Assembly (NCBI GenBank): GCA_016278485.1
Contig: JADQBT010000002.1
Span: 62,001-126,000, forward strand
DNA: 64,000 bases
Source: Halanaerobiales bacterium
Lineage (GTDB): Bacteria; Bacillota; Halanaerobiia; Halanaerobiales; Halanaerobiaceae
Direction: 5' to 3'
Part shown: piece after piece, positions 1-29,475 of the stretch
How positions within the stretch are numbered: position 1 is the first letter of the stretch
Layout: each line of letters opens with the position of its first letter
Notes under the pieces: generated by a model
Databases searched by the model: none
What the model saw: the letters and a program-made list of their open reading frames with translations, nothing else
What the model was told of the DNA's origin: nothing
Position numbers and translations under genes: made by a program

Positions 1-1067
1 ATCAAGGTATAAATAAACTAGCAAAAGAAAATATAAAAATCTTTATGATTGCAGGGAATCATGATCATTTGCAAGATTATCAAAGCATACTGTCAATGCC
101 AGATAATTTTTATTTATTTTCGGCAGAAAAATTTGAAAGTAAATTACTTATGTTTAAAGACTTTACGGTTAAAATAATAGGTCGTTCTTATGCTAGTAGA
201 GAGGAAACAAGAAATAATTTAAAAGATTTGCAGACTGAATTTGCTAATTTTTCAATTGTGATGCTACATACGGATTTGGCTGGTCAGGGAAGCCCTTATC
301 TTCCTTTAAATAAAAAGGAGATACTAACTTTGTCTAATGTTGATTACTGGGCCTTAGGTCATCGACATTTGCCACAGCTAATAGATAAAAAACCTACTAT
401 AGCTTATCCCGGAGTCCTACAAGCGAGAGATTTTGGTGAATTAGGCAAGGGAGGTTGCTGGTTAGTTGAACTAATTGATAAAGAGATAAATAAAATTGAG
501 TTTAAAAATTTAGCATCTTTAGAATTTAAAAAAATAATTATTAAACTTACAGATGAAAGTGATTTGGAAACTTTTTCAGATTTAATAGATATTTTGCAGA
601 AAAGAATAGAGAGATTATATTTACAAGCAGATCATAATTCAATATATTTATTAGAAATGATTTTAAAAGGTCAACATCCAATTAGTAAATTATTGTCTGA
701 ACAAGGAAGTGAAGGGTTACAGTTTATTAAAGATGAGTTAAACAATCAACTTAGTCAGGCTCAATTATCAGTTTGGATAGAAAGAATTGTTGATCAATGC
801 ATTAATGAATTTCCCATAAGTAAGTTGGAAGAATTAAAGGATAATAATCCTCTTTATCAAGAATTGGAAAGTTTGTTAGTTAAACTGCTTGCGGATAAAG
901 AATTAAAAAATGAACTTTTGCAAGAAATGGGAGAGATTTGGACTACCAGGACAAATTTAGAAGAGTCTAATCCTTTACAATTTGAGGTTGATGATGATCA
1001 ATTACAATATATGATTGAACAGAGTAAAAGATATATCTTAAATAATCTCTTTTCAGGAGGAAAATAA
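1..1067 (+). CDS. YhaO/SbcD-like metallophosphoesterase (DNA repair exonuclease family), 5' end outside window
   Basis: Calcineurin-like phosphoesterase of the SbcD/YhaO type, probably the nuclease partner of the ATPase encoded next. The reading frame is open from base 3, so the gene begins upstream; 354 residues are visible. The phosphoesterase motif GNHDH appears near the visible N-terminus and a later GHRH motif (about residue 118) would supply further metal ligands, as in Mre11/SbcD nucleases. The first metal motif (DxH) would lie outside the window. The C-terminal half is a Lys/Glu/Leu-rich helical extension typical of YhaO. The stop codon overlaps the ATG of the ATPase by one base (TAATG), so the two are translationally coupled. 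Family assignment is firm; substrate is unknown. Confidence 0.85.
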   Translation, partial: QGINKLAKENIKIFMIAGNHDHLQDYQSILSMPDNFYLFSAEKFESKLLMFKDFTVKIIGRSYASREETRNNLKDLQTEFANFSIVMLHTDLAGQGSPYLPLNKKEILTLSNVDYWALGHRHLPQLIDKKPTIAYPGVLQARDFGELGKGGCWLVELIDKEINKIEFKNLASLEFKKIIIKLTDESDLETFSDLIDILQKRIERLYLQADHNSIYLLEMILKGQHPISKLLSEQGSEGLQFIKDELNNQLSQAQLSVWIERIVDQCINEFPISKLEELKDNNPLYQELESLLVKLLADKELKNELLQEMGEIWTTRTNLEESNPLQFEVDDDQLQYMIEQSKRYILNNLFSGGK

Positions 1068-9562: not shown

Positions 9563-10564
9563 ATGGATGTAATACAGTTTTTTAAAGAAAGGGCTAGTCA
9601 AGTACAGGAACCAATTGTATTGCCAGAAGGTAGTGATAAAAGAATTATTGAAGCTGCTGCAATGATTATCGAAGAAAAATTGGCTAAACCGATTATTCTT
9701 GGCGATATTGATGAAATTAAGAGACTGGCAACTGAATTAAAGGTTAGCCTTAATGGTGCTAAATTAATTGATCCAAAAAATGCAGCTGACAAAGCTGAAT
9801 TAGTAGAAATTTTTTATAAGATTAGGCAGCATAAAGGTATAAGTAAAGATGAAGCTGCTGAATTATTATCGGATCCTTTATATTATGGTACAATGCTAGT
9901 ACATACAAACCGGGCGGCTGGAATGGTGGCTGGCTCTATTAATGCTACAGGTGATGTATTAAGACCAGCGTTTCAGATTGTTAAGACAAAACCCGGTATT
10001 TCTGTAGTTTCTGGTGCATTTGTAATGGTGACTCCCAAAACTGAATTTGGTGATGAAGGAGTTTTATTTTTTGCAGATTGTGCTGTTAATCCTGCCCCAA
10101 ATGCAGAAGAACTTTCTCAAATTGCATTATCAACTGCACATACTGCTGAAACTTTACTTGGAATGGATCCTAAAGTTGCAATGTTATCATTTTCATCTAA
10201 GGGAAGTGCTCAACACGCTAATGTAGATAAAGTAAGAAAGGCGACAGAATTAGCGCAAAAATGTGCTCCAAATTTAAAGATTGATGGAGAATTACAGGCC
10301 GATGCAGCGTTAGTTGCTGCAGTTAGTAAGAGAAAAGCCCCGAACAGCCAAGTTGCTGGCAACGCAAATGTACTTGTTTTTCCAGATTTAGAAGCAGGAA
10401 ACATTGGCTATAAACTAGTCCAAAGATTTGCAGATGTAGATGCAATAGGACCAATTTTACAAGGTTTAGCTAAACCTATCAATGATCTTTCGCGAGGTTG
10501 CTCTGTAGAGGATGTTGTTAATTTAGTTGCTATAACTTCTGTGCAAGCCCAGGGGTTAAATTAA
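9563..10564 (+). CDS. pta: Phosphate acetyltransferase
   Basis: A 333-residue enzyme that interconverts acetyl-CoA and phosphate with acetyl phosphate and CoA, the first step of acetate fermentation. The whole sequence has the short single-domain clostridial Pta style, with LPEGSDKRI near the N-terminus, FADCAVNP and FSSKGSA in the catalytic half. The ATG at 9563 is preceded by AAAGGTG at good spacing. An in-frame TTG 39 bp upstream overlaps the inverted repeat and lacks a ribosome binding site. It is followed 40 bp later by ackA, completing the ATP-yielding pathway. Cytosolic. Confidence 0.95.
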   Translation: MDVIQFFKERASQVQEPIVLPEGSDKRIIEAAAMIIEEKLAKPIILGDIDEIKRLATELKVSLNGAKLIDPKNAADKAELVEIFYKIRQHKGISKDEAAELLSDPLYYGTMLVHTNRAAGMVAGSINATGDVLRPAFQIVKTKPGISVVSGAFVMVTPKTEFGDEGVLFFADCAVNPAPNAEELSQIALSTAHTAETLLGMDPKVAMLSFSSKGSAQHANVDKVRKATELAQKCAPNLKIDGELQADAALVAAVSKRKAPNSQVAGNANVLVFPDLEAGNIGYKLVQRFADVDAIGPILQGLAKPINDLSRGCSVEDVVNLVAITSVQAQGLN

Positions 10565-10604
10565 TTTTAAAATATAATTTTAATAGATGAAAGGAGAATA
10601 AAAA

Positions 10605-11807
10605 ATGAAAATTTTAGTTTTAAATAGTGGGAGTTCTTCCCTGAAATATCAATTTATTAATATGGATAAAGAAGAGGTGCTAGCCAAAGGTTTGGTACAA
10701 AGAATTGGTATTGAAGATTCTTTTCTTGAACATGAACTAAGTGATGGTCGGGAAATTAAAATTGAAACTGATATTCCAGATCATGGTAAAGGGATTAAAC
10801 TTGTTATTGATGCATTATTATCTGATGAACATGGTGTTGTAGATGATATAGATGAAATTAGTGCAGTCGGTCATCGGGTTGTCCATGGTGGTGAAAAATT
10901 TGCAGATTCTGTTTTAATTAATGATGAAGTAATTAAACAGATTGAAGAGGTTTCAGAGCTGGCTCCATTACATAATCCGGCAAACTTGAAAGGAATTAAA
11001 GTTTGTGAAAAATTAATGCCAAACAAGCCACAAGTTGCTGTATTTGACACAGCTTTTCATCAAAGCATGCCAGAAAAGGCATATATGTATGCTCTTCCTT
11101 ATGAATATTATGAAAAATATGGAGTACGCCGTTATGGTTTCCATGGTACTTCTCACAAATATGTTTCTAAAAAAGCTGCCGAATTAATTGATAAACCATT
11201 TACAGAAGCAAAAATTATTACTTGCCATCTTGGTAATGGTGCTAGTGTTGCAGCTGTTGATGGAGGTAAATCTGTGGATACAAGTATGGGACTTACTCCA
11301 TTAGAGGGTCTTGTTATGGGAACTCGTTGTGGAGATATTGATCCTGCTATTGCACCTTTTATCATGGAAAAAGAGGGATTAACTGCTTCTGAAATGGATA
11401 CAATAATGAATAAAAAAAGTGGATTATATGGTGTTTCAGGTATTAGTAATGATTCAAGAGATGTAGAGGATGCCGCTACTGACGGAAATCATCGTGCTGA
11501 GATTGCACTTGAATTATTTGATTATCGAGTTAAAAAATATGTTGGTGCTTATACCGCGGCTATGAATGGAGTAGATGCCATCGTATTTACAGCTGGAATT
11601 GGTGAGAATTCTAAAAAATCTAGAGCTAATATTGTGAATGGTTTAAAATATCTTGGTATATCGCTCAATGAAGAAGCTAATGATAGTAGAGGAGAAGAAG
11701 TTGAAATATCAACTCCTGATTCAAAGGTGAAAGTATTTGTGATTCCAACTAATGAAGAATTAGTTATTGCACAAGATACCAAGAGGATAGCCGATTTCTC
11801 TGGCTAA
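10605..11807 (+). CDS. ackA: Acetate kinase
   Basis: A 400-residue ASKHA-fold kinase that converts acetyl phosphate and ADP to acetate and ATP. Motifs seen are the N-terminal [10 protein letters not shown] phosphate-binding segment, [15 protein letters not shown] (phosphate-2) and FTAGIGENS (adenosine/connect region), all in the expected order and at usual length. AAAGGAG precedes the ATG. Second gene of a pta-ackA operon; with pta it provides substrate-level phosphorylation, consistent with a fermentative organism. Confidence 0.97.
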
Positions 11808-11814
11808 TTTCTCC

Positions 11815-11844
11815 TTGACAAGGTGACTTGACTTTATGTATAAT
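11815..11844 (+). promoter_or_regulatory. Sigma-A promoter of the ylbN-rpmF unit
   Basis: TTGACA at 11815-11820, an 18-bp spacer and TATAAT at 11839-11844, starting 8 bp after the ackA stop and about 30 bp before the ylbN start. Confidence 0.75.
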
Positions 11845-11873
11845 TAACATTGGTAATTACAGGGGTGATTAAT

Positions 11874-12347
11874 TTGTATATAGACCTCAGTGATTTAAAT
11901 GAGGTTGGAGGTCGCAAAGAAGTAGTAACAGATGTTAATTTTGCGGACCTTAGTTTTAGAGACCGGGATATTGAAATTCCAAAACCTTTACATTTAGAAT
12001 TTACCATATTTAAAACACAAGATTCCTTTGTAATCAGGGGGAAAGTTACTGGTTCAATTGTACTTGCCTGTAGCCGTTGCCTAGAAAAATTTCAGCATCA
12101 GCTTGATTTAGAAGTTGATGAGGAAATTATTGCTACAGAGATGCCTGATCTAAATGAACTAGATATTTCTGATATTATTAGAGAAAATATTTTATTGAAT
12201 TTAGCAATTAAACCTCTCTGTGCAGAGGATTGTAAAGGTCTTTGTGTAGAATGTGGACAAAATTTGAATGAAGAAGAATGTGATTGTGATACTGAAATCA
12301 TAGACCCACGTCTGGCCGACCTTAAGAATTTTTTTGATGACAATTAA
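11874..12347 (+). CDS. DUF177/YceD (YlbN) protein linked to 23S rRNA and L32
   Basis: A 157-residue DUF177 protein. Homologues are nearly always encoded directly upstream of rpmF and are implicated in 23S rRNA maturation or accumulation. The C-terminal half has the characteristic cysteine set: CSRCL, then [14 protein letters not shown], then CDC, likely a metal site. The TTG at 11874 is preferred because AGGGGTG lies 6 nt upstream; in-frame codons further upstream have no ribosome binding site. It is separated by 14 bp from rpmF. Confidence 0.9.
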
Positions 12348-12361
12348 AGGAGGTGGAGAGG

Positions 12362-12535
12362 ATGGCTGTACCTAAAAAACGAACTTCTAAGACTAGAAAG
12401 CGCAAACGTCGCACACACTGGAAACTTAAAAGTCCAAATTTGGTAGAATGCCCTCAATGCCACTCTCAGGTATTATCTCATCGAGTATGTCCAGAGTGTG
12501 GTCATTATAAAGGAAAGCAAGTTATTAGTAAATAA
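12362..12535 (+). CDS. rpmF: 50S ribosomal protein L32, zinc form
   Basis: A 57-residue L32 with the basic N-terminus [16 protein letters not shown] and two CxxC pairs (CPQC and CPEC) that mark the zinc-binding version. The ATG at 12362 follows AGGAGGTGGAGAGG; an earlier in-frame codon at 12353 lies within that ribosome binding site. The position after ylbN and before plsX is conserved in Firmicutes. An intrinsic terminator follows. Confidence 0.97.
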
Positions 12536-12546
12536 CTTAACATTAA

Positions 12547-12581
12547 AGCAGGTATCCTAATAAGGGATTCCTGCTTTTTTT
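12547..12581 (+). terminator. Intrinsic terminator after rpmF
   Basis: AGCAGG-T-ATCC pairs with GGAT-T-CCTGCT with one internal mismatch, followed by seven T residues. Confidence 0.85.
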
Positions 12582-12593
12582 GATTTAACTGAC

Positions 12594-12622
12594 TTGCATT
12601 TGACTCGCGGTTGAGATATAAT
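12594..12622 (+). promoter_or_regulatory. Sigma-A promoter of the plsX-fab operon
   Basis: TTGCAT at 12594-12599, a 17-bp spacer and TATAAT at 12617-12622. No obvious FapR-type operator was recognised around it. Confidence 0.7.
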
Positions 12623-12678
12623 AATTTCGTGTTAGAAAAATGAAAAATGTTTCCGGTTTTTAAAAGGAGGCGAATTAG

Positions 12679-13692
12679 TTGTATCGTATTGCAGTAGATG
12701 TAATGGGTGGAGATAATCCACCATCAGAAATCATAAAAGGTGCTGTAAATGCCTGCTATGAGGATAAATTAATTAATTTGATACTAGTAGGTAAATATGA
12801 TATTATTATGCGAGAGTTAGATGCATTAAATGCTAATAAAACTAGAATACATATAGAAGATGCTACTGAAATAATTACTATGGATGAAGCACCAGCTAGA
12901 GCTTTAAGGAAGAAAAAACGTTCTTGTATTAATATTGGTACTAATCTTGTTAAAGACGGTAAAGCTGATGCATTTATTTCCCCCGGTAATACGGGTGCAG
13001 TAATGGCTGGAGGTTTATTTAATATCGGCAGAGCTAAAGGTATTAAAAGGCCGCCAATTGCTATTAACTTTCCGGCTATAAACGGAGAAACATTAGTGCT
13101 TGATAATGGTGCAAATACTGACTCAAGTCCTGAAAACTTACTCCAGTTTGCTTTGATGGGTCAAGTTTTTGCAAAAGAGGTACAGGGAATAAAAAATCCT
13201 CGGATTGGATTGTTAAGTATAGGTTCTGAAAAGAAAAAAGGAAATAAGTTAACTAAAGCTACATATGAATTATTGGTAGAAGATAAGCGAATTGAGAATT
13301 TCATTGGTAATGTTGAAGGCCGTGATATTTTCTCTGATACTTGTGATATAATATTAACTGATGGTTTTGTCGGTAATGTAGTACTTAAGACTACTGAAGG
13401 AGCCGCTTCTTTTTTTCTAGAACTTTTAAAAAGTGCGTTTAAGACTAACTGGAGAGCTAAATTAGGTGCTTTATTACTGAAGCCATATTTAAAAAAAGTC
13501 CTTAATAAAATTGATTATAGACAATATGGCGGGGCTCCACTCTTAGGATTGAATGGTGTTGTTATTATTAGCCATGGTAGCTCAGATGATGTTGCTATCT
13601 ATAATGCAATTAAAGTTGCTCGAAAAACTATCGAAAATAATGTTGTTAAACTTATAGAAGCAGAGATAAATGATGAGGAGGAAGATCATTAA
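12679..13692 (+). CDS. plsX: Phosphate acyltransferase PlsX
   Basis: A 337-residue peripheral membrane enzyme that makes acyl phosphate from acyl-ACP for PlsY, starting phospholipid synthesis. The N-terminus IAVDVMGGDNPP and the internal SPGNTGAVMAGG and DGFVGNV motifs are family hallmarks. It starts at TTG, 10 nt after AGGAGG. PlsY is encoded in this window at 27691, so both steps of the acyl-phosphate route are present. First gene of plsX-fabK-fabG-acpP; the next start follows its stop directly. Confidence 0.95.
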   Translation: MYRIAVDVMGGDNPPSEIIKGAVNACYEDKLINLILVGKYDIIMRELDALNANKTRIHIEDATEIITMDEAPARALRKKKRSCINIGTNLVKDGKADAFISPGNTGAVMAGGLFNIGRAKGIKRPPIAINFPAINGETLVLDNGANTDSSPENLLQFALMGQVFAKEVQGIKNPRIGLLSIGSEKKKGNKLTKATYELLVEDKRIENFIGNVEGRDIFSDTCDIILTDGFVGNVVLKTTEGAASFFLELLKSAFKTNWRAKLGALLLKPYLKKVLNKIDYRQYGGAPLLGLNGVVIISHGSSDDVAIYNAIKVARKTIENNVVKLIEAEINDEEEDH

Positions 13693-14637
13693 GTGAGTAT
13701 TAAAACACCCTTATGCGAGATACTTGAAATAGAAAAACCAATTTTGCAAGGAGGAATGGCCTGGGTTGCGACAGGTGAACTTGCAGCTTCAGTTTCTATA
13801 GCAGGTGGATTAGGCATTATCGGTTCTGGTAATGCTCCAGCAGATGTCGTAGCAAAGGAAATAGCTAAAGTAAAAGAAATGACTGATAAACCATTTGGAG
13901 TTAATGTTATGTTATTATCTCCTTTTGTAGATGATCTAATAGATTTAATGATCGAAGAGAAAGTTCCAGTTGTTACAACTGGGGCTGGTAATCCAGGTAA
14001 ATATGTGGATAGATTACAAAAGGCCGGAAGTAAAGTAATACCTGTTGTACCATCTGTTGCACTAGCAAGAAGGATGGCACGAATGGGTGTTGATGCCTTA
14101 ATTGCAGAAGGAACTGAGGCTGGGGGACATATTGGAGAATTAGCAACTATGCCTTTAATTCCACAAATAGTTGATGTAGTTGATATTCCTGTTATTGCTG
14201 CTGGTGGTGTTGGAGATGGCAGAGGCTTTGCTGCTGCTTTAATGCTAGGTGCGCAAGGTGTTCAGCTTGGAACACGTTTTGTCTGTACAACTGAATGTAC
14301 AGCTGCTCCAGAATATAAAGAAGCAATTATAGGTGCCAGGGATAGGGATGCAGTTGTTACAGGTCGGATAACTGGACATCCTGTCAGAAATATTAAAAAT
14401 CAATTAACAAGAGAATTAGAAAAGATGGAAAATGAAGGTGCTAGCAAAGAAGAGATTGAAGAAGCAGCCAGTGGTGGTTTAAGAAGAGCTGTTACAGAAG
14501 GTGATGTGATGGGTGGAAGTGTTATGGCTGGACAAATTTCTGGTTTAGTCAACGATATAAAACCAGTTGCAGAGGTCATTGATGAAATATTCAAACAAGT
14601 TGAACAAACATTAAATAAATATTGCAAAAAGTTTTAA
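13693..14637 (+). CDS. fabK: Enoyl-ACP reductase II FabK (FMN-dependent)
   Basis: A 314-residue flavoprotein of the nitronate monooxygenase/FabK family, reducing trans-2-enoyl-ACP in the last step of each elongation cycle. It has the typical N-terminal PILQGGMAWVA, the FMN/phosphate-binding IAAGGVGDGRG and LGAQGVQLGTRF, and the GTEAGGHIG catalytic-region motif. It starts with GTG immediately after the plsX stop. Its presence in the fab operon replaces FabI. Related 2-nitropropane dioxygenases are the alternative, but context decides for FabK. Confidence 0.93.
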   Translation: MSIKTPLCEILEIEKPILQGGMAWVATGELAASVSIAGGLGIIGSGNAPADVVAKEIAKVKEMTDKPFGVNVMLLSPFVDDLIDLMIEEKVPVVTTGAGNPGKYVDRLQKAGSKVIPVVPSVALARRMARMGVDALIAEGTEAGGHIGELATMPLIPQIVDVVDIPVIAAGGVGDGRGFAAALMLGAQGVQLGTRFVCTTECTAAPEYKEAIIGARDRDAVVTGRITGHPVRNIKNQLTRELEKMENEGASKEEIEEAASGGLRRAVTEGDVMGGSVMAGQISGLVNDIKPVAEVIDEIFKQVEQTLNKYCKKF

Positions 14638-14661
14638 TTAGATTTGAAGAGGTGTATAAAG

Positions 14662-15408
14662 ATGATAGATTTAACTGGCAAAGTAGCATTAGTTACTGGA
14701 AGTTCAAGAGGAATAGGAGCTGCTACAGCTATTAAACTTGCTGAGGCTGGTGCAGATCTGGTAATTAATTATGCATCATCGCAAGGTCCGGCTGAAGAAA
14801 TAGCGAGCAAGATAAATAAAATTGGTCGAAAAGCTATTGTTTTACAGGCTAATGTGGCTAATTTTGATGAAGCTAAATCCTTAATCAAAAAAACGAAAAA
14901 AGAATTCGGCAAATTAGATATTTTGGTTAATAATGCAGGAATTACTAATGATAAATTATTATTAAGAATGAAAGAAGACGACTGGGATCAAGTGATAGAT
15001 ATTAATTTGAAAGGTGTTTTCAATACAACTAAATCAGCTGCCCGTTATTTAATGAAATCAGAAGCAGGCAGAATAATCAATCTAAGTTCTGTTGTTGGTT
15101 TAATGGGAAATGCAGGTCAGGCTAATTATGCTGCAGCAAAGGCTGGTATTCTTGGTCTAACAAAATCAACAGCTAGAGAATTAGCAGTACGTGGTGTAAC
15201 CGCAAATGTAGTAGCTCCTGGTTTTATAGAAACAGATATGACAGAAAATTTACCTGAGAATGTAAAAGCAGAGATGTTATCTAATATACCAGCTAACAGA
15301 TTTGGTAAGGTTGATGAAGTTGCTAATTTAATTGTTTTTCTTGCTTCACCACTGGCCCAATACATAAATGGTCAGGTTATTAATGTAGATGGAGGTATGT
15401 TGATGTGA
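14662..15408 (+). CDS. fabG: 3-oxoacyl-ACP reductase FabG
   Basis: A 248-residue short-chain dehydrogenase that reduces 3-oxoacyl-ACP with NADPH. The Rossmann TGSSRGIG, NNAG, the catalytic Ser in NLSSVVG and the YxxxK in NYAAAKAG are intact, and the C-terminus reads VDGGMLM as in authentic FabG. The ATG at 14662 sits 8 nt after GAGGTG; a TTG 18 bp upstream lacks this spacing. It lies between fabK and acpP. Confidence 0.95.
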   Translation: MIDLTGKVALVTGSSRGIGAATAIKLAEAGADLVINYASSQGPAEEIASKINKIGRKAIVLQANVANFDEAKSLIKKTKKEFGKLDILVNNAGITNDKLLLRMKEDDWDQVIDINLKGVFNTTKSAARYLMKSEAGRIINLSSVVGLMGNAGQANYAAAKAGILGLTKSTARELAVRGVTANVVAPGFIETDMTENLPENVKAEMLSNIPANRFGKVDEVANLIVFLASPLAQYINGQVINVDGGMLM

Positions 15409-15423
15409 AAGGAGGTGAAAGAA

Positions 15424-15660
15424 GTGGCTAACGATGTTCTTAATAGAGTTATTGATATCGTTGTTGAAGAACTAGCAGTAGACAGGGATGAAGTTACAGA
15501 AGAATCTTCTTTTATTGAAGATCTCGGTGCTGATTCATTAGATGTTGTTGAATTAGTTATGGCTTTTGAAGAAGAATTTGATGTAGAAATTCCTGATGAA
15601 GATGCGGAAAAAATTCGCACAGTAGATGATGCTGTTAGTTATCTGGAAGATATTCTATAA
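15424..15660 (+). CDS. acpP: Acyl carrier protein
   Basis: A 78-residue acidic four-helix ACP that carries growing acyl chains on phosphopantetheine. The attachment Ser is in [11 protein letters not shown] (about residue 38). GTG at 15424 was chosen: GGAGGTG lies 6 nt upstream, whereas the earlier in-frame GTG at 15415 is inside that site. Last gene of the plsX-fabK-fabG-acpP transcript; a strong terminator follows. Confidence 0.95.
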
Positions 15661-15672
15661 ATATATATTAAT

Positions 15673-15714
15673 AAGGGAGAAAACTCCGTTTAGCGGAGTT
15701 TTTGTCCCTTTTTT
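15673..15714 (+). terminator. Intrinsic terminator after acpP
   Basis: Long hairpin: AAGGGA and AAAACTCCG on the left pair with CGGAGTTTT and TCCCTT on the right, with a TTTAG loop and a T-run after it. The downstream rnc gene has its own ribosome binding site. Confidence 0.85.
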
Positions 15715-15744
15715 GCTCATATTGTTTGGGAGAGGTGAGATAAG

Positions 15745-16458
15745 ATGTCCTGTTTATTTATTAAAGAAAAGAAAATGACTGAACTAGAAGAAAAAATTGA
15801 TGTTCAATTTGATGATAAGTATTTATTGCAACGAGCATTAACCCATAAGTCTTTTCCTAATGAAAACAGATATTTAGATTTAAAAGATAATGAAAGACTT
15901 GAATTTCTTGGCGATTCTGTTCTAAGTATTTCAATTAGTACTTACATTTTTAAAAAGTTTCCTGATCATCCAGAAGGTGAACTGGCTAAAATGCGCGCAG
16001 TACTAGTTAGTGCTCCCGTCCTGGCACAAATGGCAAGGGATCTAGATCTTGGTGAATATCTTTTGCTTGGCAAAGGAGAAGAAATGACAGGTGGGCGTGA
16101 AAGAGATTCAATTTTGGCAGATACTATGGAAGCAATTTTTGGTGCTGTTTATCTGGATCAGGGGTTTGCTGTGGCCTGTAGAATAATTATTGATATTTTT
16201 AGTAATGACATAAAAAATGCAGCTCAGGGCAAACATATTCAGGATTATAAAACAATGTTACAGGAAATAATACAAAAAGATGGTAGTGATAGACCAGATT
16301 ACGAAGTTATTCAAGAGAAAGGGCCTGATCATAATAAAACTTTTATTGTAGAAGTGAAATTAAGAGAAAATAATCTTGGTTCAGGTCAAGGTTCTAGTAA
16401 GAAAGAAGCTGAACAGGAGGCTGCTAAAGTAGCTTTGCATAAAATGAATGAAATTTAA
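15745..16458 (+). CDS. rnc: Ribonuclease III
   Basis: A 237-residue double-strand-specific endoribonuclease for rRNA and mRNA processing. The RNase III signature NERLEFLGDSVL and the second metal motif DTMEAIFGA are intact. A dsRNA-binding domain covers about residues 165-235, ending GSGQGSSKKEAEQEAA. The ATG at 15745 has GAGGTG 7 nt upstream; the internal ATG at 15775 has a weaker site. The position after acpP is the common Firmicute order. Confidence 0.96.
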   Translation: MSCLFIKEKKMTELEEKIDVQFDDKYLLQRALTHKSFPNENRYLDLKDNERLEFLGDSVLSISISTYIFKKFPDHPEGELAKMRAVLVSAPVLAQMARDLDLGEYLLLGKGEEMTGGRERDSILADTMEAIFGAVYLDQGFAVACRIIIDIFSNDIKNAAQGKHIQDYKTMLQEIIQKDGSDRPDYEVIQEKGPDHNKTFIVEVKLRENNLGSGQGSSKKEAEQEAAKVALHKMNEI

Positions 16459-16463
16459 TCGAT

Positions 16464-16520
16464 ACCCCCCGGATATTTCTACTTTTTAAATCATATTATA
16501 TAGTAAAGTGTCTGGGGGGT
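16464..16520 (+). promoter_or_regulatory. Inverted repeat masking the ribosome binding site of the 16528 gene
   Basis: ACCCCCCGGA (16464-16473) can pair with TCTGGGGGGT (16511-16520), ten pairs with one G-U, around a 37-nt loop. The right arm is the likely Shine-Dalgarno sequence of the next gene. A candidate promoter lies between the arms. Confidence 0.6.
16471..16499 (+). promoter_or_regulatory. Candidate sigma-E (mother-cell) promoter
   Basis: GGATATT (16471-16477), a 14-bp gap and CATATTAT (16492-16499) resemble the sporulation sigma-E consensus (about KMATATT, 14-15 bp, CATACAAT), with mismatches in each element. No sigma-A promoter is apparent for this gene. Confidence 0.4.
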
Positions 16521-16527
16521 TCTAGCT

Positions 16528-17016
16528 ATGAAAAACTTTTTCAAACGCCTGGAAAGGATTTTCTCTTATTTATTTATTTTAGGTTTAATTTTGTTGAGCA
16601 CTATCCAAATTATTTTAACAAATCCTGTCGGTTATGAAAGGATTAATTGGTTAAATCAAAAGTTTAATAATTTATTTGCTGAACAAAAGCCGAAGGCTGT
16701 CAGTACAATAGGTACCTATACTGAAGAAATGTCTGGTTATTTTATTTTGGATTTAATGAATAATTATCCAGGGAATCAAATTTGGATATTAAAAAATGGC
16801 ATGCGAATTAATAATTTTAACAAAGGTCTAGTTCGTGTTTATGTTAAAGATGGAGATTTTATTTCTCTTGATGCTCAATCTGTCAATGAGCCAGTCTGGT
16901 TTAAGATTACTGAAGTTTCACCAACAATAAGTGGTTTAGAACAAGGTCAGCTATTTCGACTTGAAAACGAAAAAATATTTCTGGCTGAAATAACAATGGA
17001 AGAAGAAGTTTATTAA
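16528..17016 (+). CDS. Conserved-looking single-pass membrane protein, unknown
   Basis: A 162-residue protein not recognised. A basic N-terminus (KNFFKRLERI) precedes one membrane helix (about residues 12-32); the remaining 130 residues are predicted outside the cytoplasm and have the alternating pattern of a small beta domain (WILKNGMRI, GLVRVYVKDGDFI). The ribosome binding site is an unusual GGGGGGT, 7 nt before the ATG, embedded in an inverted repeat, and a sigma-E-like promoter lies just upstream. A sporulation or envelope role is possible but only inferred from that context. It lies between rnc and the aromatic genes. Confidence 0.7.
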   Translation: MKNFFKRLERIFSYLFILGLILLSTIQIILTNPVGYERINWLNQKFNNLFAEQKPKAVSTIGTYTEEMSGYFILDLMNNYPGNQIWILKNGMRINNFNKGLVRVYVKDGDFISLDAQSVNEPVWFKITEVSPTISGLEQGQLFRLENEKIFLAEITMEEEVY

Positions 17017-17045
17017 AATTTTGAAAGTTTTACAGGAGGAGCATA

Positions 17046-18254
17046 ATGTACGCAATTCGCGGAGCAATTACTATTAAAAAAAATACTCCTGAAGATATAG
17101 CTAGAGGAACTAAGGAGTTATTTACTAAAATTATTGATAAGAATAATTTAACTGAGGAAGAATTAGTAAGTATCATATTTTCAGCAACTAAAGATATAGA
17201 TCAAGCTTATCCTGCTAAAACAGTTAGAGACTTGGGTTATTTAAAAACACCACTATTTTGCTTGCAGGAGATGCATGTCAAAAATAGTCTAGCTCAGACA
17301 ATAAGAGTTCTAGTAAATGTAAATCCGATTCATTCAGTTGATAAAATTAAGCATGTCTATTTAGGCGAAGCTAAAGCATTAAGACCGGATCTGCTCGATA
17401 AAGATAATCAATCTGAGAGCAGTAATTTTGCCATTGATAATTTTAATCTTAACAATCATCATTCAACAATTCCAATTGAGCTGGGTCGAGGCAGAATAAT
17501 TGGTGGAAAAGATATAATTATTATGGCCGGTCCCTGTGCTGTTGAAAATAAAAAACAAATTTTTGCTGCTGCAGAAACCGCAGCTTTAAGTGGTGCTACT
17601 TGTTTAAGAGGTGGTGCCTTTAAACCACGAACATCACCTCATTCTTTTCAGGGGTTGGGTGAAGAAGGTCTTAAATTATTAAGATCGGCTGCTGATCAAA
17701 ATCAGTTGGCTGTTGTAACCGAAATTTTGGATCCTAGACATCTTTCTTTAATAGCTAATTATACAGATATATTTCAGATTGGTGCCAGAAATATGCATAA
17801 TTATTATTTATTGAAAGAAGTTGGCAAACAAAATAAACCTGTTTTATTAAAAAGAAATATGAGTGCTACCTACAAAGAATTATTATTAGCAGCTGAATAT
17901 ATTAAACAAGAGGGTAATCAAAAAATAATTTTATGTGAAAGAGGAATACGGACTTTTAATGAAACAATGAGAAATACACTTGATATTATGAGTGTTCCTC
18001 TTTTGAAAAAAATAAGTCCTTATCCCATTGTTGTTGATCCAAGTCATGGGACAGGCTATCGTGAATTAATTGGAGCAGCAGGAAGGGCAGCTATTGCAGC
18101 AGGAGCAGATGGTTTAATAATTGAAATTCATCCTCAACCAGAAAAAGCGCTTAGTGATGGTAAACAATCTATTAGAACGAGTGATTTTCAGAATATGGTG
18201 TTACAGTTTAAAGAAGTTGCTAATGCCGTTAATAGAACTATTGGTGTCGAATAA
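17046..18254 (+). CDS. Fused AroH-type chorismate mutase and DAHP synthase
   Basis: A 402-residue bifunctional protein. Residues 1 to about 118 resemble monofunctional AroH chorismate mutase: IRGAITI at the start, the LFSATKDIDQAYPAKTVR segment, CLQEMHV and HVYLGEAKALRPDL. Residues about 140-400 are a type I-beta DAHP synthase (IMAGPCAVE, RGGAFKPRTSP, IGARNMHN, LLKRNMSAT, VVDPSHGTG), which condenses phosphoenolpyruvate and erythrose 4-phosphate. Known fusions usually use the unrelated AroQ mutase, which gives prephenate or chorismate feedback; an AroH fusion could work the same way. AGGAGG precedes the ATG; aroA follows 2 bp later. Confidence 0.9.
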   Translation: MYAIRGAITIKKNTPEDIARGTKELFTKIIDKNNLTEEELVSIIFSATKDIDQAYPAKTVRDLGYLKTPLFCLQEMHVKNSLAQTIRVLVNVNPIHSVDKIKHVYLGEAKALRPDLLDKDNQSESSNFAIDNFNLNNHHSTIPIELGRGRIIGGKDIIIMAGPCAVENKKQIFAAAETAALSGATCLRGGAFKPRTSPHSFQGLGEEGLKLLRSAADQNQLAVVTEILDPRHLSLIANYTDIFQIGARNMHNYYLLKEVGKQNKPVLLKRNMSATYKELLLAAEYIKQEGNQKIILCERGIRTFNETMRNTLDIMSVPLLKKISPYPIVVDPSHGTGYRELIGAAGRAAIAAGADGLIIEIHPQPEKALSDGKQSIRTSDFQNMVLQFKEVANAVNRTIGVE

Positions 18255-18256
18255 TT

Positions 18257-19558
18257 ATGATAATTAACTTACCTAAAGCAAAATCTTTAAAAGGCATTCT
18301 CTCACCACCTGCTGATAAATCAATTTCCCATAGAGCCTTAATATTTGCAGCCTTAGCTAAAAATGAAATAATAATTAATAACATATTAGAAGCTGAAGAT
18401 TGTCTGACAACACTGGAAGCGTTAAATAAATTTGGATTTAAGATTGGAAGATTGTCAACCGGAAGATATTTAGCTAAAAAATTAGATAATAAAATAATTA
18501 GTGAACCCCAAAATATTATTGATTGTAAAAATTCTGGAACGACAATGCGTTTATTAGCTGGTCTAGCTTCATCTATAGCTGGTCTAACAATTCTAACAGG
18601 TGATGATTCACTTAGAAATAGACCAATGCAAAGAATTATTGATCCTTTAACAAAGATGGGAGCAGAGATATTTTCTCGGAGTGATGGTTTGGCTCCTCTT
18701 GCAATAAGAGGAGGAGAATTACAAAAAAATTTTTATTTCTCTCCTCAAATTGCTAGTGCTCAACTTAAATCAGCTATTTTATTGGCTGTAGCTAATGGAG
18801 GAATGGCAGTAGAAATCAACGAACCTGCCGTCTCTAGAGATCATACTGAAAGGTTACTTGCGTTAGCTGGAGAAAATATTAAATATGGTTTGGGTAAAAT
18901 AATCTATCAAAAAGATCAATCTGATTTATATTTACCAGATCTTTTAGAAATTCCAGGTGATTTTTCTTCAGCCGCATATTTTATTGGTCTTGCTCTCATC
19001 TTGTCAAAAAGTGAGATTATTATTAAAGAGGTAGGTATTAACCCAACTCGAACAGGGTTACTTGAAATTCTAGATAATATGAATGCTAAGATTGAGATTT
19101 TAAATAGACATCAGTTAGGCAACGAACCTGTTGCTGATTTGAAAATAAATTATTCTCAACTAAAAGGTACTGTAATTTCTGGTTCAGTTATTCCTAGAAT
19201 GATTGATGAATTACCTTTGTTAGCTGTTATTGCTGGATTTGCAGAAGGAAAAACAATCATAAAAGATGCAGCAGAATTAAAGGTGAAGGAAACTGACCGC
19301 ATTGAAATGTTAGCCCTCGAGTTACGTAAACTTGGTTATCAAATTTCTACAAATTGGGACGGGATGACTATTTATGGTCGGGAAAATATAAAACCTAATG
19401 AAGTTAGGCTTGATTGTTACCAGGACCATCGTCTAGCAATGGCATTAGCTGTAGCTGGAACAGCTTTAACTAAGAAAATAATTTTAAAAAATGCAGATTC
19501 AGTTAATATTTCTTACCCTGATTTTTTTCGAGATTTGAGAAACTTAGCTATTTTTTGA
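18257..19558 (+). CDS. aroA: 3-phosphoshikimate 1-carboxyvinyltransferase (EPSP synthase)
   Basis: A 433-residue shikimate-pathway enzyme that transfers enolpyruvyl from phosphoenolpyruvate to shikimate 3-phosphate. It shows the N-terminal PADKSISHRA, the NSGTTMRL loop, SRDHTERLL and the C-terminal KVKETDRIEML and DHRLAMALA motifs. It follows the mutase-DAHP synthase fusion by 2 bp and so is co-transcribed. The order DAHP synthase-aroA-cmk is common in Clostridia. A promoter for cmk lies within its last codons. Confidence 0.96.
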   Translation: MIINLPKAKSLKGILSPPADKSISHRALIFAALAKNEIIINNILEAEDCLTTLEALNKFGFKIGRLSTGRYLAKKLDNKIISEPQNIIDCKNSGTTMRLLAGLASSIAGLTILTGDDSLRNRPMQRIIDPLTKMGAEIFSRSDGLAPLAIRGGELQKNFYFSPQIASAQLKSAILLAVANGGMAVEINEPAVSRDHTERLLALAGENIKYGLGKIIYQKDQSDLYLPDLLEIPGDFSSAAYFIGLALILSKSEIIIKEVGINPTRTGLLEILDNMNAKIEILNRHQLGNEPVADLKINYSQLKGTVISGSVIPRMIDELPLLAVIAGFAEGKTIIKDAAELKVKETDRIEMLALELRKLGYQISTNWDGMTIYGRENIKPNEVRLDCYQDHRLAMALAVAGTALTKKIILKNADSVNISYPDFFRDLRNLAIF

Positions 19559-19564
19559 TATAAT
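19535..19564 (+). promoter_or_regulatory. Possible sigma-A promoter for cmk
   Basis: TTGAGA at 19535-19540, an 18-bp spacer and TATAAT at 19559-19564, overlapping the aroA stop and 24 bp before the cmk start. Confidence 0.5.
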
Positions 19565-19587
19565 AGAATAATGAAGTAGGTGATTAG

Positions 19588-20256
19588 ATGAAAGATGTTA
19601 TTGCAATTGATGGACCAGCTGGTGCAGGAAAAAGTACTATTGCTAAAAAACTGGCAGTTCAATTAAATTATAATTATCTTGATACAGGTGCAATGTATAG
19701 AGCAGTTACTCTGTTAGCTTTAACAAATAAAGTTGATTTTTCAGATAAAAAGAAGATAGTATCACTTGCAAAAAAAGCCCAATTTCAATTTGCTTTTTCT
19801 AATGATGAAAGTAAGTTATTATTATTTTTAAATGGTCAAGATGTTAGTAAATTAATTAGATCAAAAAAAATTAATCAACATGTTTCAGATGTAGCTTGTA
19901 TTAAAGGCGTAAGAGATATTCTAGTCAAAAAACAACAGGAATTAGCTCAAAATGGTAAAGTAGTGATGGATGGACGTGATATAGGAACACGAGTCTTACC
20001 AGAAGCAGAATATAAATTTTATTTAACAGCTACTTTAGAAGAGAGAGCCCAACGCAGATTCAACGAAAACCTAAATCATGATGATAATGTTAGCTATCAA
20101 CAAATTAAAGAAAACATAAAACTACGAGATGAAATTGATAGTCAACGCAAACACTCACCTTTAAAAAAGGCAGAAGATGCAATTTTAATAGATACAACCC
20201 ATTTTAGTATTGAAGAAGTAGTGGAAAAAATCAAAACTATCATCAGGAGTGAATAA
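19588..20256 (+). CDS. cmk: Cytidylate kinase
   Basis: A 222-residue P-loop kinase that phosphorylates CMP and dCMP. The Walker A GPAGAGKST is at residues 9-17, followed by LDTGAMYRAV and the VMDGRDIGTRVLP segment. The C-terminus has the usual RDEIDSQR lid motif. It begins at ATG with TAGGTGATTAG before it. Cmk-plsC-ispH-rpsA is the standard clostridial string, all present here in order. Confidence 0.96.
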   Translation: MKDVIAIDGPAGAGKSTIAKKLAVQLNYNYLDTGAMYRAVTLLALTNKVDFSDKKKIVSLAKKAQFQFAFSNDESKLLLFLNGQDVSKLIRSKKINQHVSDVACIKGVRDILVKKQQELAQNGKVVMDGRDIGTRVLPEAEYKFYLTATLEERAQRRFNENLNHDDNVSYQQIKENIKLRDEIDSQRKHSPLKKAEDAILIDTTHFSIEEVVEKIKTIIRSE

Positions 20257-20258
20257 TT

Positions 20259-20846
20259 TTGGAAAATGTTGCTTATCATACTGCCAGAAAGCTAATTAAA
20301 TTATATTTTGATATTTTCCATGATTGGGAAGTAATTGGACAGGAAAACATCCCAAAAGAGGGTAAAATAATCATTATGTCGAATCATATTAGCGGGTATG
20401 ATCCTCCCTTAATTGGAGCAGCTGTTAAAAGACCAGTTCATTTTATGGCAAAAGAAGAGTTGTTTTCTAACATTTTTTTGCGACTTATTATGAAAATAGC
20501 AGGAGCATTTCCAGTGAGAAGAGGTAGACCAGACCGAAAAGCAATTAAAAAGGCAATTAGATTGCTAGAAAACGGGGATATTGTTGGGATTTTTCCAGAA
20601 GGAACCCGACATCAAGAAGGAAAACCTGGAAAAGCAAAAGCAGGTGCAGTGATGTTACCTCTAATGACAAAAAGCCCTATTCTTCCAATTGGAATTAAAA
20701 CTGTTAATAACAAGAGTAAAAAAAGAGTAGTTATTGGTAAGCCATTTTCATTAAGTAATTACTATAATCATAAATTAACTCGAAAAGAAAGAAACCAAGC
20801 TGGCGAGTTTATAATGAAACGAATTTCGGAATTATTAGATAATTGA
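20259..20846 (+). CDS. plsC: 1-acyl-sn-glycerol-3-phosphate acyltransferase PlsC
   Basis: A 195-residue membrane-associated acyltransferase that makes phosphatidate from lysophosphatidate. The catalytic NHxxxxD box is SNHISGYDPP (about residues 42-51), and the substrate motif FPEGTR is near 112-117. It starts at TTG two bases after the cmk stop, with AGGAGT upstream. With PlsX (12.7 kb) and PlsY (27.7 kb), this completes phosphatidate synthesis in the window. Confidence 0.94.
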   Translation: MENVAYHTARKLIKLYFDIFHDWEVIGQENIPKEGKIIIMSNHISGYDPPLIGAAVKRPVHFMAKEELFSNIFLRLIMKIAGAFPVRRGRPDRKAIKKAIRLLENGDIVGIFPEGTRHQEGKPGKAKAGAVMLPLMTKSPILPIGIKTVNNKSKKRVVIGKPFSLSNYYNHKLTRKERNQAGEFIMKRISELLDN

Positions 20847-20867
20847 TGTTTTCACATCTTTTTTTTG
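20845..20867 (+). terminator. Weak intrinsic terminator after plsC
   Basis: GATGT-TTTC-ACATC, a short 5-bp stem with a following T8 run, overlapping the plsC stop codon. Confidence 0.45.
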
Positions 20868-21006
20868 AATTAAGCAATTTTTTTAGTAAAAAGGAAGGAT
20901 TTTGGTTGTTAATAGAGAACACCTAATAAGAGGCTTATATTAAACTTTTTCTATAATGGGTATAATAATGTTTAGTGCAGTCCAAGTTTTGTTGTTGTCG
21001 TGCTGG

Positions 21007-21024
21007 AAGGAGGTGAAGGTTCTG
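21007..21024 (+). promoter_or_regulatory. Ribosome binding site fixing a CTG start for ispH-rpsA
   Basis: AAGGAGGTG at 21007-21015 lies 8 nt (from GGAGG) before an in-frame CTG at 21022-21024. Upstream in-frame ATG (20956, 20968) and TTG codons have no such site, and the GTG at 21013 is inside it. Confidence 0.65.
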
Positions 21025-23175
21025 GAGATCGTAACTGCCGAAGAAGCGGGATTTTGTTTTGGAGTCGAAAGAGCAATTGACATGGTTTTTGCTGCAGTAG
21101 AAGATCATAAAGATAAATCTGTTTATACACTTGGGCCGCTGATTCATAATCCGCAGGTTGTCGCTAAACTAGAAAAAATTAATGTCAGAACAATTGATTC
21201 TATTGATTCAATTGATAATGGCATCCTGATCATAAGATCACATGGTGTTGAACCCGATGTTTATGAGAAGGCTGAAAAAAAAGGATTACATATCATTGAT
21301 GCGACTTGCCCATTTGTAAAAAATGCCCAAAAATATGCCCGCAATTTGATTAAAGATGGTTTTCAAACTTTTATTTATGGAGATCCTGACCATCCTGAAG
21401 TTAAAGGAATTCAGGGAGCTGCCGATTACCAGGCAATCATTGTTAAGGACCTGGACGATATAAAGAAACAAGCTATCGGTAATAAAGTTGGGATTGTTGC
21501 TCAAACAACAAAATCTCCGGAGTCTTTCCGGGAAATTATAGTTTATCTAGAAAATAATGTAGAAGATCTAAAAATTCATAATACAATATGCAATACAACA
21601 GAAATCAGACAGCGATCTGCTGCTAAATTAGCAGAAAAAGTTGATGTCATGTTAGTAATTGGGGGTAAAAATAGTGCAAACACAAACCGTCTTAAAGAAA
21701 TTTGTGTTGCTACTAGCACCCCTACTTATCATATAGAAACAGCTGATGAGGTTGATCCTCAATGGTTGTATAAAAAAAACAAAGTTGGAATTACAGCTGG
21801 AGCTTCAACTCCAGACTGGTTAATAAGGGAGGTTGTTCAGTTAATGAATGAAGAAAACAAAGAGTTAAACGTAGAAGAAACAGAAGAAAAAGAAGAGTTA
21901 AACGTAGAAGAAGCTGAAGAAGTTGAGGAGGTAAGTGAGCCAGAAACTACAGAAGAAGAAGTTTCTGTTGAAGAGGAAACTGTTTCTGCTGAAGAGCAGG
22001 AAGTTAAATATAGTGATTATGACAATGCAGATCTCCGTAAAGGTCAAAAGACTACAGGTAATGTGGTTGAAATTAATGATAATGGAGTTTATGTAAATGT
22101 GAATTATAAAACAGACGGTTTTATTCCACTTCGACATTTAAGCCATAGACCTGTTGAAGATGCTCATGAAGTTGTAAATATTGATGATGAAATCGAAGTT
22201 GTTGTACTTACTTTAGAAGATGATGAAGGCAATCTGATTCTTTCTAAAAAACAAGCTGATTATGAAAAATCTTGGGAAAAAATTGTTGAATCATACGAAA
22301 ATGATGAAATAATTGAAGCAGAAGTTACAAAAGAAGTAAAAGGTGGATTAGTTGTTGATGTAGGAGTGAGAGGCTTTATTCCCGCTTCACATGTCGCAAT
22401 TGGTTATGTAGATGACCTTTCACAGTATGTTGGTGAAACTATGCGTCTAAGAGTCATTGAAGTTGAAAGAGATAATAATAATGTTGTTCTTTCTGCTAAA
22501 AAGGTACTTGAAGAAGATAGAGCAGAGCAGAAGGATGAAACATTAGCTTCCCTAGAAGAAGATCAAACAGTGGAAGGTACAGTAACAAAGCTAGTTGACT
22601 TTGGTGCATTTATTGATCTAGGCGGGATTGAGGGATTATTACACATTTCTGAAATGTCATGGGGTAGAATTGCTCATCCTTCTGAAGTTTTAGAAGAAGG
22701 TCAAAAGGTAGAAGTTAAAGTTCTTGGCGTCAATCGCGAAGAAGAAAGAATTTCGCTTGGACTTAAGCAACTATTACCTGATCCTTGGGAAGAATTTGCT
22801 GAAAAACACTATGAAGGCGAAATCATTACTGGTAAAATTACTAAAATTGTTGATTTTGGTGCTTTCATGGAAATTGAGAAAGGTATTGAAGGTTTAATTC
22901 ATATTTCTCAACTTTCACACCGTCATGTTAAAACTCCTGATGAAGTTGTAACTGTTGGTGAAGAAAGAGAAGCAAAAATTATTAATGTTGATGCTGACCA
23001 AGAAAGAGTTGGTCTTAGTTTAAAGGAACTTGAAGAAGAAACAGAGAAAAAACCTGTATCAAAAAAACAAAAATCATCTTCCAATAAGAAAAAGGAATCG
23101 TCATCATCATCTTCTGGTGGCGGCGGAGCTACTATAAGAGAAATTGTAGGAGATATTTTTGATCAAGGCAATTAA
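21022..23175 (+). CDS. Fused IspH (HMBPP reductase) and ribosomal protein S1
   Basis: A 717-residue fusion typical of Clostridia. Residues 1 to about 285 are IspH, the [4Fe-4S] enzyme that makes IPP and DMAPP in the MEP pathway; its three cluster cysteines are in AGFCFGV, DATCPF and TICNTT. A strongly acidic linker (about 285-345) contains a duplicated ELNVEE unit. Four S1 RNA-binding repeats follow (about 345-675), with GAFIDLGGIEGLLHIS and GAFMEIEKGIEGLIHIS in repeats 3 and 4, then a Ser/Lys-rich tail. E. coli S1 has six repeats. The CTG start gives the family-typical N-terminus. It follows cmk-plsC and is ended by a strong terminator. Confidence 0.93.
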   Translation: MEIVTAEEAGFCFGVERAIDMVFAAVEDHKDKSVYTLGPLIHNPQVVAKLEKINVRTIDSIDSIDNGILIIRSHGVEPDVYEKAEKKGLHIIDATCPFVKNAQKYARNLIKDGFQTFIYGDPDHPEVKGIQGAADYQAIIVKDLDDIKKQAIGNKVGIVAQTTKSPESFREIIVYLENNVEDLKIHNTICNTTEIRQRSAAKLAEKVDVMLVIGGKNSANTNRLKEICVATSTPTYHIETADEVDPQWLYKKNKVGITAGASTPDWLIREVVQLMNEENKELNVEETEEKEELNVEEAEEVEEVSEPETTEEEVSVEEETVSAEEQEVKYSDYDNADLRKGQKTTGNVVEINDNGVYVNVNYKTDGFIPLRHLSHRPVEDAHEVVNIDDEIEVVVLTLEDDEGNLILSKKQADYEKSWEKIVESYENDEIIEAEVTKEVKGGLVVDVGVRGFIPASHVAIGYVDDLSQYVGETMRLRVIEVERDNNNVVLSAKKVLEEDRAEQKDETLASLEEDQTVEGTVTKLVDFGAFIDLGGIEGLLHISEMSWGRIAHPSEVLEEGQKVEVKVLGVNREEERISLGLKQLLPDPWEEFAEKHYEGEIITGKITKIVDFGAFMEIEKGIEGLIHISQLSHRHVKTPDEVVTVGEEREAKIINVDADQERVGLSLKELEEETEKKPVSKKQKSSSNKKKESSSSSSGGGGATIREIVGDIFDQGN

Positions 23176-23188
23176 AATTTGCTTTTTA

Positions 23189-23226
23189 AACCCCCAGTAT
23201 TCGTGAAGGATACTGGGGGTTTTTTG
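23189..23226 (+). terminator. Intrinsic terminator after ispH-rpsA
   Basis: CCCCCAGTAT and ATACTGGGGG form a perfect 10-bp stem around a 9-nt loop, followed by a T-run of six or more. Confidence 0.92.
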
Positions 23227-23286
23227 TATATATAGATGATTAACTGGTAATTATAAAAGTAAATAAATATGAAAGGTGGAGTCCCT

Positions 23287-23907
23287 TTGGCTATTGGTTC
23301 TATAGTATTATTTATAACAGCAGTTATAATATATTTCGGTTTAGCAGAAAGAGTACTTGATCGTTTATATTTAACAGATAATCAAGCATTAATAATTATC
23401 ACTTTAATTATCGCTGGTAGTTATATTAATATTCCTCTTTATGAACAACCCTTTATTTCAATTAATGTTGGTGGATTTGTAATTCCTCTCTTATTAAGTC
23501 TCTACATTTTATTTAAATCTGATACTAATCTAGAAAAAATGAGGGCACTGCTTGCAGCCGTTTTAACAGGAACAGTAATTTATGGACTAAGTATTATATT
23601 TAAAAACTATGGACATGGTAGAGATTTAATAGAGCCATTTTATTTATTTGCTCTGACTGGTGGATTAATAGCATATTTAGCAGGTAGAAGTCGTCGTGGT
23701 GCTTTCTTTGCAGGAGTTGTTGGTTTTATTATTTATCAGTTAACTTATTTAGTCAATATTATTCAGGGTGATTATATTGGAGACATTAGGTTGGGAGCTG
23801 CTGGAGCATTTGATACTATACTAATTTCAGGTATTTTTTCGCTTTTACTAGTAGAATTAATTGGAGAAACTAGAGAATATGTTAGTAGTAGGGGAGAAAA
23901 TAAGTGA
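23287..23907 (+). CDS. DUF1614 family membrane protein
   Basis: A 206-residue polytopic membrane protein with about seven hydrophobic helices, matching DUF1614, a family of unknown function usually beside spoIIP in Clostridia. The conserved-looking polar segment YGHGRDLIEP is in mid-protein. The TTG at 23287 is preferred to the ATG at 23269 because AAAGGTGGAG lies between them, 6 nt from the TTG. Its stop overlaps the start of spoIIP by 4 bp, so the two are coupled and may act together in sporulation; that role is inference. Confidence 0.8.
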   Translation: MAIGSIVLFITAVIIYFGLAERVLDRLYLTDNQALIIITLIIAGSYINIPLYEQPFISINVGGFVIPLLLSLYILFKSDTNLEKMRALLAAVLTGTVIYGLSIIFKNYGHGRDLIEPFYLFALTGGLIAYLAGRSRRGAFFAGVVGFIIYQLTYLVNIIQGDYIGDIRLGAAGAFDTILISGIFSLLLVELIGETREYVSSRGENK

Positions 23908-29384: not shown

Positions 29385-29457
29385 GTCATAAATATCCTTC
29401 TAATGCAATAATAATATATTAATCTAGCTGAATTTAGGCCAGATGAGATTTGTTTGC

Positions 29458-29475
29458 AAAGGAGGGTCTCAAATT
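29458..29475 (+). promoter_or_regulatory. Ribosome binding site fixing an ATT start for spoIVA
   Basis: AAAGGAGGG (29458-29466) lies 6 nt before an in-frame ATT at 29473. The only upstream in-frame ATG (29443) has no such site, and starting there would add ten residues not expected in SpoIVA. Confidence 0.6.

Follow-up and report, generated by a model that had tools for sequence, protein, structure and literature searches.

In the mobile element IS10/Tn10, RNA that reads in from external promoters folds over the start of the transposase gene, which does not happen when transcription begins at the element's own promoter. In phage T4, the long early RNAs of gene e (lysozyme), soc, 49 and I-TevI bury the Shine-Dalgarno sequence or the AUG in a helix; according to the available text of PMC3014915, a late promoter within the 5' strand of this helix gives rise to an RNA without that strand, which is translated, and the effect on lysozyme is 100-fold. 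For Bacillus subtilis, the available part of PMC5942855 proposes a hairpin in the long leader of sigG; transcripts that start at the sigG promoter are unable to form it. Spore genes inside growth operons must remain silent despite being transcribed. Here, we analysed a 64,000-nucleotide (nt) stretch of DNA from a Halanaerobiales bacterium (assembly GCA_016278485.1, contig JADQBT010000002.1, positions 62,001 to 126,000, forward strand; hereafter the window), in which a 162-codon open reading frame (ORF) for an uncharacterised membrane protein lies behind a hairpin downstream of rnc, the gene for RNase III. Its sequence and computed folding make it probable that this hairpin is a translational insulator built round a sporulation promoter.

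IS10/Tn10 is a mobile element and not developmental, unlike this locus. The T4 leaders, as far as the available text describes them, follow the same logic but serve the timing of phage lysis, whereas the window locus has a chromosomal sporulation gene and a putative sigma-E promoter in place of the late promoter. The sigG hairpin, in the part of PMC5942855 referred to, is a proposal for one forespore gene behind a sporulation operon; the window differs from it in its mother-cell-type promoter, its gene, its housekeeping neighbours and its wide conservation. The logic is already known from T4 lysozyme and B. subtilis sigG, and what is new is a widely conserved case at an uncharacterised sporulation gene. 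In the open-licence literature, we found no description of the gene, of its conservation or of the replacement of arms around a fixed sigma-E promoter.

Start-site hairpin and putative embedded promoter

The original prediction held that a left arm upstream of the ORF pairs with a GGGGGGT-containing right arm that carries the ribosome binding site (Table 1). Its coordinates are correct and the pairing was recovered, but the stem extends beyond the original description: 16464-16478 and 16506-16520 form 15 pairs (G-U pairs counted), followed by a bulged C and four inner pairs. The RNA of 16440-16560 folds at -34.0 kcal/mol compared to -20.4 +/- 3.4 kcal/mol for 200 shuffled sequences (z -4.0), and none of these (0/200) folds as well. 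We also scored the duplex between a left stretch (-85 to -26) and the start site (-24 to +10), with z calculated against shuffles of the left stretch, a test that is blind to short hairpins. With a duplex z of -4.6, the ORF is second-lowest among the 52 window genes tested; the lowest value, -5.0 at 44831, comes from AT-rich pairing of merely -14.6 kcal/mol.

A repeat element was ruled out because the arm pair is single-copy, CCCCCC-N30-60-GGGGGG occurring at a single place in the whole 2.86 Mb genome that carries the window. Similarly, a known RNA family was ruled out because Rfam gave no match at gathering score within 10000-24000. A chance origin of the hairpin was ruled out by the shuffles, by the neighbouring genes and by three other sporulation gene sets described below.

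A strong GC stem just past the rnc stop codon (16458) could also be the 3' end or terminator of the upstream rnc mRNA, ending or protecting it. However, no T run follows the stem (TTCTAGCTATG), the stem is absent from the list of the terminator scan, and the right arm stays with the start site throughout the relatives. We consider a 3' end function very improbable indeed.

The only promoter-like sequence had been predicted to lie within or after the left arm, and this holds: GGATATT-14-CATATTAT (16471-16499) straddles the left arm and the loop, and the promoter scan lists no sigma-70-type site on the + strand within 16219-16679. The pattern GGATAWT-N14-CATANNNT has one match in the window, which is GGATATT-14-CATATTAT itself, with 0.07 expected. 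Read as ATA-N16-CATATTAT, the sequence has the sigma-E form, i.e. an ATA in the -35 region, about 16 nt and a CATA in the -10 region. For comparison, the mapped sigma-E promoter of Clostridioides difficile spoIIID reads ATA-N16-CATATATA in the available text of PMC3789822. Moreover, the genome (L002) contains a gene for sigma-E, which scores 372.5 bits against a curated cut-off of 348.6.

The same hairpin might instead surround a promoter that is read by sigma-K or sigma-G, or is unused, with the gene merely dampened or opened by a trans-acting factor. As far as the text of PMC3789822 goes, the -10 boxes of sigma-E and sigma-K promoters are similar, the CATA being common to both; in the -35 region, by contrast, sigma-E promoters have ATA and sigma-K promoters AC, and the ATA that lies 16 nt 5' of CATA in the window is the sigma-E form. 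This alternative is unlikely.

Taken as a translational insulator, the hairpin would work as follows. Housekeeping transcription would cross rnc into the ORF; the terminator scan lists no intrinsic terminator between the two genes. In this read-through RNA, the left arm would pair with the ribosome binding site, and with the site paired growing cells would not translate the ORF. In sporulating cells, RNA polymerase carrying sigma-E would initiate at GGATATT-14-CATATTAT, and the RNA, beginning near 16506, would lack the left arm and be translated in the mother cell. The computed cost of opening -15 to +3 is 24.3 kcal/mol in the read-through RNA and 6.2 kcal/mol in RNA from 16506.

Recurrence in homologues

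We searched 398 genomes from the phylum with a profile of 16 proteins, which detected homologues in 125. We analysed 126 loci from 125 genomes, drawn from 110 of the 125 phylum profile matches and 26 of the 27 homologues in the class; start codons were picked by a script, and L037 and L076 are one gene. The duplex test was complemented by an opening test, in which the cost of opening -16 to +3 is compared to that with shuffled upstream sequences and no arms are fixed. As controls, we used the starts of other genes at these loci as well as spoIVA (26 of 27 loci), spoIIIAA (25 of 27) and two spoIIP sets gathered with phmmer; these controls are rough, since the second spoIIP set contains many apparently misplaced start codons and the spoIVA start in the window's own genome was probably misplaced as well.

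A duplex z of -2 or lower was found at 73 of the 126 homologue loci (median -2.5) compared to 20 of 236 other gene starts (median 0.0), the genomes being related so that these and the following counts are not independent. Judged by the median, 28 of 47 families and 51 of 94 genera lie at or below this threshold. Within the class, 22 of 26 homologues do so, compared to 1/26 for spoIVA and 1/25 for spoIIIAA of these genomes; the spoIIP sets gave 1/22 and 2/26. The opening test gave a similar picture, with z of at least 2 at 70 of 125 homologues compared to 12 of 235 neighbours, 1 of 26 spoIVA and 1 of 25 spoIIIAA loci; the fraction was 20/26 for the class homologues. A general trait of sporulation genes was ruled out, as spoIVA, spoIIIAA and both spoIIP sets have no excess of hairpins.

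The promoter recurs together with the hairpin. The motif nnATAnn-13..15-CATA precedes the homologue in 77 of 125 cases, compared to 4 of 235 for neighbouring genes, and the spacer is 14 in 58 of 79 motif matches. At 48 of the 51 loci with both the motif and a z of -2 or lower, the -10 element lies between the starts of the two arms, and at 68 of 76 loci the left arm finishes before the predicted transcription start (+2). Hairpins are found at 51 of 77 loci with the motif compared to 22 of 48 without it (p = 0.027); this fits the model and leaves 22 loci unexplained, some of which perhaps carry unrecognised motifs.

Loss of the left arm lowers the median opening cost at the 77 motif-bearing loci from 13.1 to 6.3 kcal/mol, and the drop is at least 5 kcal/mol at 51 of them; when control genes were truncated at matched places, 15 of 236 showed a drop of this size. 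Mean pairing of the Shine-Dalgarno sequence falls from 0.75 to 0.43 (76 loci). The promoter RNAs are incompletely open and slightly costlier to open than the cut controls (p = 0.037).

The arms themselves have been exchanged. In relatives from the order that also have the gene behind rnc, the leader reads CCGGGATAATTT...CATAAAGATATA...TATCCCGGGAGGTT. Among 11 order-level sequences the stem keeps its position, and 6 of its 14 pairs have changed on both sides; in this alignment the pairing register was chosen for maximal pairing, giving 84% paired cells compared to 36-61% when slid, and 6 pairs with two-sided changes compared to 2-3 when slid. In other families the arms are unrelated: L036 has TTTTCCACCTCCG/CGGAGGTGGAAAA, flanking CATATCTT, and L023 has yet other arms, CCCTTTCTC/GAGAAAGGG, with CATAGAA/TTCTATG. 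In L030, L031 and L034, the -10 element itself pairs with the start-codon region (CATAGTAT/ATACTATG, CATAGAAT/ATTCTATG). Here the partner of the CATA in the -10 element is the TATG that includes the start codon, so that a single sequence would be both promoter element and anti-start-codon arm. The upstream genes vary as well, and include those for an HI0933-like flavoprotein, a ketol-acid reductoisomerase, an AIR carboxylase-like protein, a PilZ protein and a protein of unknown function.

This turnover bears on two other explanations. The arms flank and overlap the promoter elements and form an operator-like inverted repeat, on which a repressor could shut the promoter in growing cells. However, complementarity to the start site persists although the arms are wholly replaced from family to family, the arms contain G-U pairs, and their spacing is variable (33-50 nt between paired anchors in the order), and we regard a DNA operator as highly improbable. 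Alternatively, nearly 20 duplex pairs immediately after rnc could be a site at which RNase III cleaves, controlling rnc or trimming the downstream RNA, with the hiding of the ribosome binding site being incidental. The design recurs behind quite different genes, though, and many of the homologue stems there are short; cleavage by RNase III as the function is quite improbable.

Several observations weigh against the hairpin as an insulator of a sigma-E promoter or limit its generality. Roughly 4 in 10 homologues do not reach the z threshold and have no clear hairpin, and L029 and L054 show neither hairpin nor motif. Hairpin frequency is independent of a close upstream gene (near, 62/103; far, 11/22; p = 0.48), although genes far from their upstream neighbour can still receive read-through. 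Upon loss of the left arm, the opening cost drops by less than 1 kcal/mol at 10 of 77 motif loci, and pairing of the Shine-Dalgarno sequence increases by at least 0.3 at 5 of 76. With one mismatch allowed, the promoter motif has 223 matches in 11 genomes of the order compared to 150 in the reversed control, and 17 compared to 13 in the window's own genome; as this excess is only mild, the motif is no marker of the sigma-E regulon. Finally, the CATA motif was not seen in the spoIIIAA leaders of the class.

On balance, the predicted silencing of read-through RNA and translation of mother-cell RNA gains support, which is comparative and thermodynamic: hairpin and internal promoter recur together in homologues sampled across the phylum while arms and neighbours change, the genome has a true sigma-E, and within the class the presence of the gene tracks sigma-E exactly. 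With somewhat less assurance, we also favour that, for this one gene and from Bacillaceae-like genomes to the Halanaerobiales, selection has kept a sigma-E promoter inside a hairpin that hides the ribosome binding site, whatever the arms or the upstream neighbour, both of which were replaced, as was the hidden part (Shine-Dalgarno sequence or AUG). If so, a purely RNA-based silencing would be kept in much of the spore-forming Bacillota, an uncharacterised protein family would be tied to sporulation, and making this small membrane protein in growing cells would appear to be costly. A hairpin with an embedded promoter would then be a marker for other developmental genes guarded against read-through.

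Link to sporulation and resemblance to YpfB

Searching 101 relatives with the single sequence as query, we found a homologue in 39, and the 12 of these genomes that lie outside the class all have sigma-E. Among 59 genomes of the class, homologue and sigma-E occur in the same 27 and are both missing from the others (agreement 59/59); spoIVA, spoIIIAA and spoIIP are each present in 27 of the 59. The 13 sampled relatives from the family have neither sigma-E nor the ORF, so that of these 14 genomes the window's alone has sigma-E.

The structural model of the ORF protein has an N-terminal membrane helix and a confident beta domain (mean pLDDT 88.6, pTM 0.58). Foldseek gave no structural match to it at E<=0.001; the best VIA-align Z, 6.6, is to a carbohydrate-binding module, and unrelated models reach as much.

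By sequence comparison, the ORF family resembles Bacillus YpfB (DUF5359). Of 27 homologues, 11 match PF17313 (DUF5359) with an E of 0.01 or less, the best at 8.6e-6, and those homologue matches for which bits are given fall below the 25-bit cut-off. A profile of the homologues aligns to DUF5359 with hhalign at 96.1% (E 3.6e-9) over 37 columns, which cover a membrane segment. PF17313 has no match to the window protein at E<=1, and the window protein is therefore not assigned to PF17313. YpfB/DUF5359 seems like the window family in its N-terminal membrane segment and in its leader design, and cmk lies directly downstream of YpfB in L150 and of a homologue in L134; at PF17313 loci of a Bacillaceae-like family, the opening test gives z of at least 2 in 16 of 30. 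By contrast, YpfB has about 56 residues and no beta domain. The 2012 survey PMC3533761, in its available part, lists ypfB among the sporulation genes of 'most bacilli, no clostridia', stage III-VI, as Bacilli-specific. The open-licence literature yielded nothing on DUF5359, nor on ypfB with cmk in Bacillus subtilis.

Locus and neighbouring genes

The ACP gene, rnc, the ORF and the chorismate mutase-DAHP synthase gene are consecutive in the window and all on the + strand. As the gap between the last two is so short, the chorismate mutase-DAHP synthase gene may need transcription through the ORF.

Table 1. Positions of the hairpin, the putative promoter and the surrounding genes in the window
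Feature	Position	Strand	Basis or remark
Terminator-like site, the sole one listed in 15300-17100	15679..15703	+	5' of rnc (terminator scan)
rnc (RNase III)	15745..16458	+	Pfam; presumed source of read-through RNA
Hairpin left arm ACCCCCCGGATATTT	16464..16478	+	Only in RNA begun upstream
-35-like GGATATT, sigma-E type (ATA 16473-16475), inside left arm	16471..16477	+	Sequence; PMC3789822 (available text)
Loop region, inner helix TACT (16480-16483) / AGTA (16502-16505)	16480..16505	+	Fold
-10-like CATATTAT, in hairpin loop, 14 nt after -35 heptamer	16492..16499	+	Sequence
Predicted start of promoter RNA (about 16506), at beginning of right arm	16504..16508	+	Inferred from -10 position
Hairpin right arm AAGTGTCTGGGGGGT, 27 nt after left arm	16506..16520	+	Carries ribosome binding site
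Shine-Dalgarno GGGGGGT, 7 nt 5' of ATG (16528)	16514..16520	+	Sequence
ORF, 162 residues, N-terminal membrane helix and all-beta domain	16528..17016	+	Sporulation-associated, YpfB/DUF5359-like
Chorismate mutase-DAHP synthase gene	17046..18254	+	Starts 29 nt past ORF

The window also contains spoIVA (29443-30948), so that two or more sporulation genes lie within a housekeeping stretch. The SpoIIP gene (23904-24980) overlaps the preceding ORF, and its GTG start pairs strongly with a left arm (z about -4); this pairing is probably chance, as z is -2 or lower in only 1 of 22 loci including the window, the 21 relatives analysed being without it. A second spoIIP copy, in L300, L301, L302 and L311, has by eye a tight hairpin, e.g. 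TCCTCTCATA-TATTTT-TATGGGAGGA, that covers the Shine-Dalgarno sequence and contains CATA in its left arm; a hairpin-embedded promoter may thus occur at this gene too.

A single ORF at 20956-23175 resembles IspH fused to S1 domains, as recognised by eye. In L011-L013, L015, L018 and L020, the leader of the chorismate mutase-DAHP synthase gene contains an inverted repeat AACACCC...GGGTGTT, often followed by T's; in the window, the 29-nt gap before this gene holds no leader of this kind. Downstream of the homologue in L068 lies a HutP-family gene (PF09021, 1.6e-44), and look-alikes of HutP were recognised by eye after the homologues in L021, L028, L033, L036, L061, L064, L077, L082, L090, L105 and L122.
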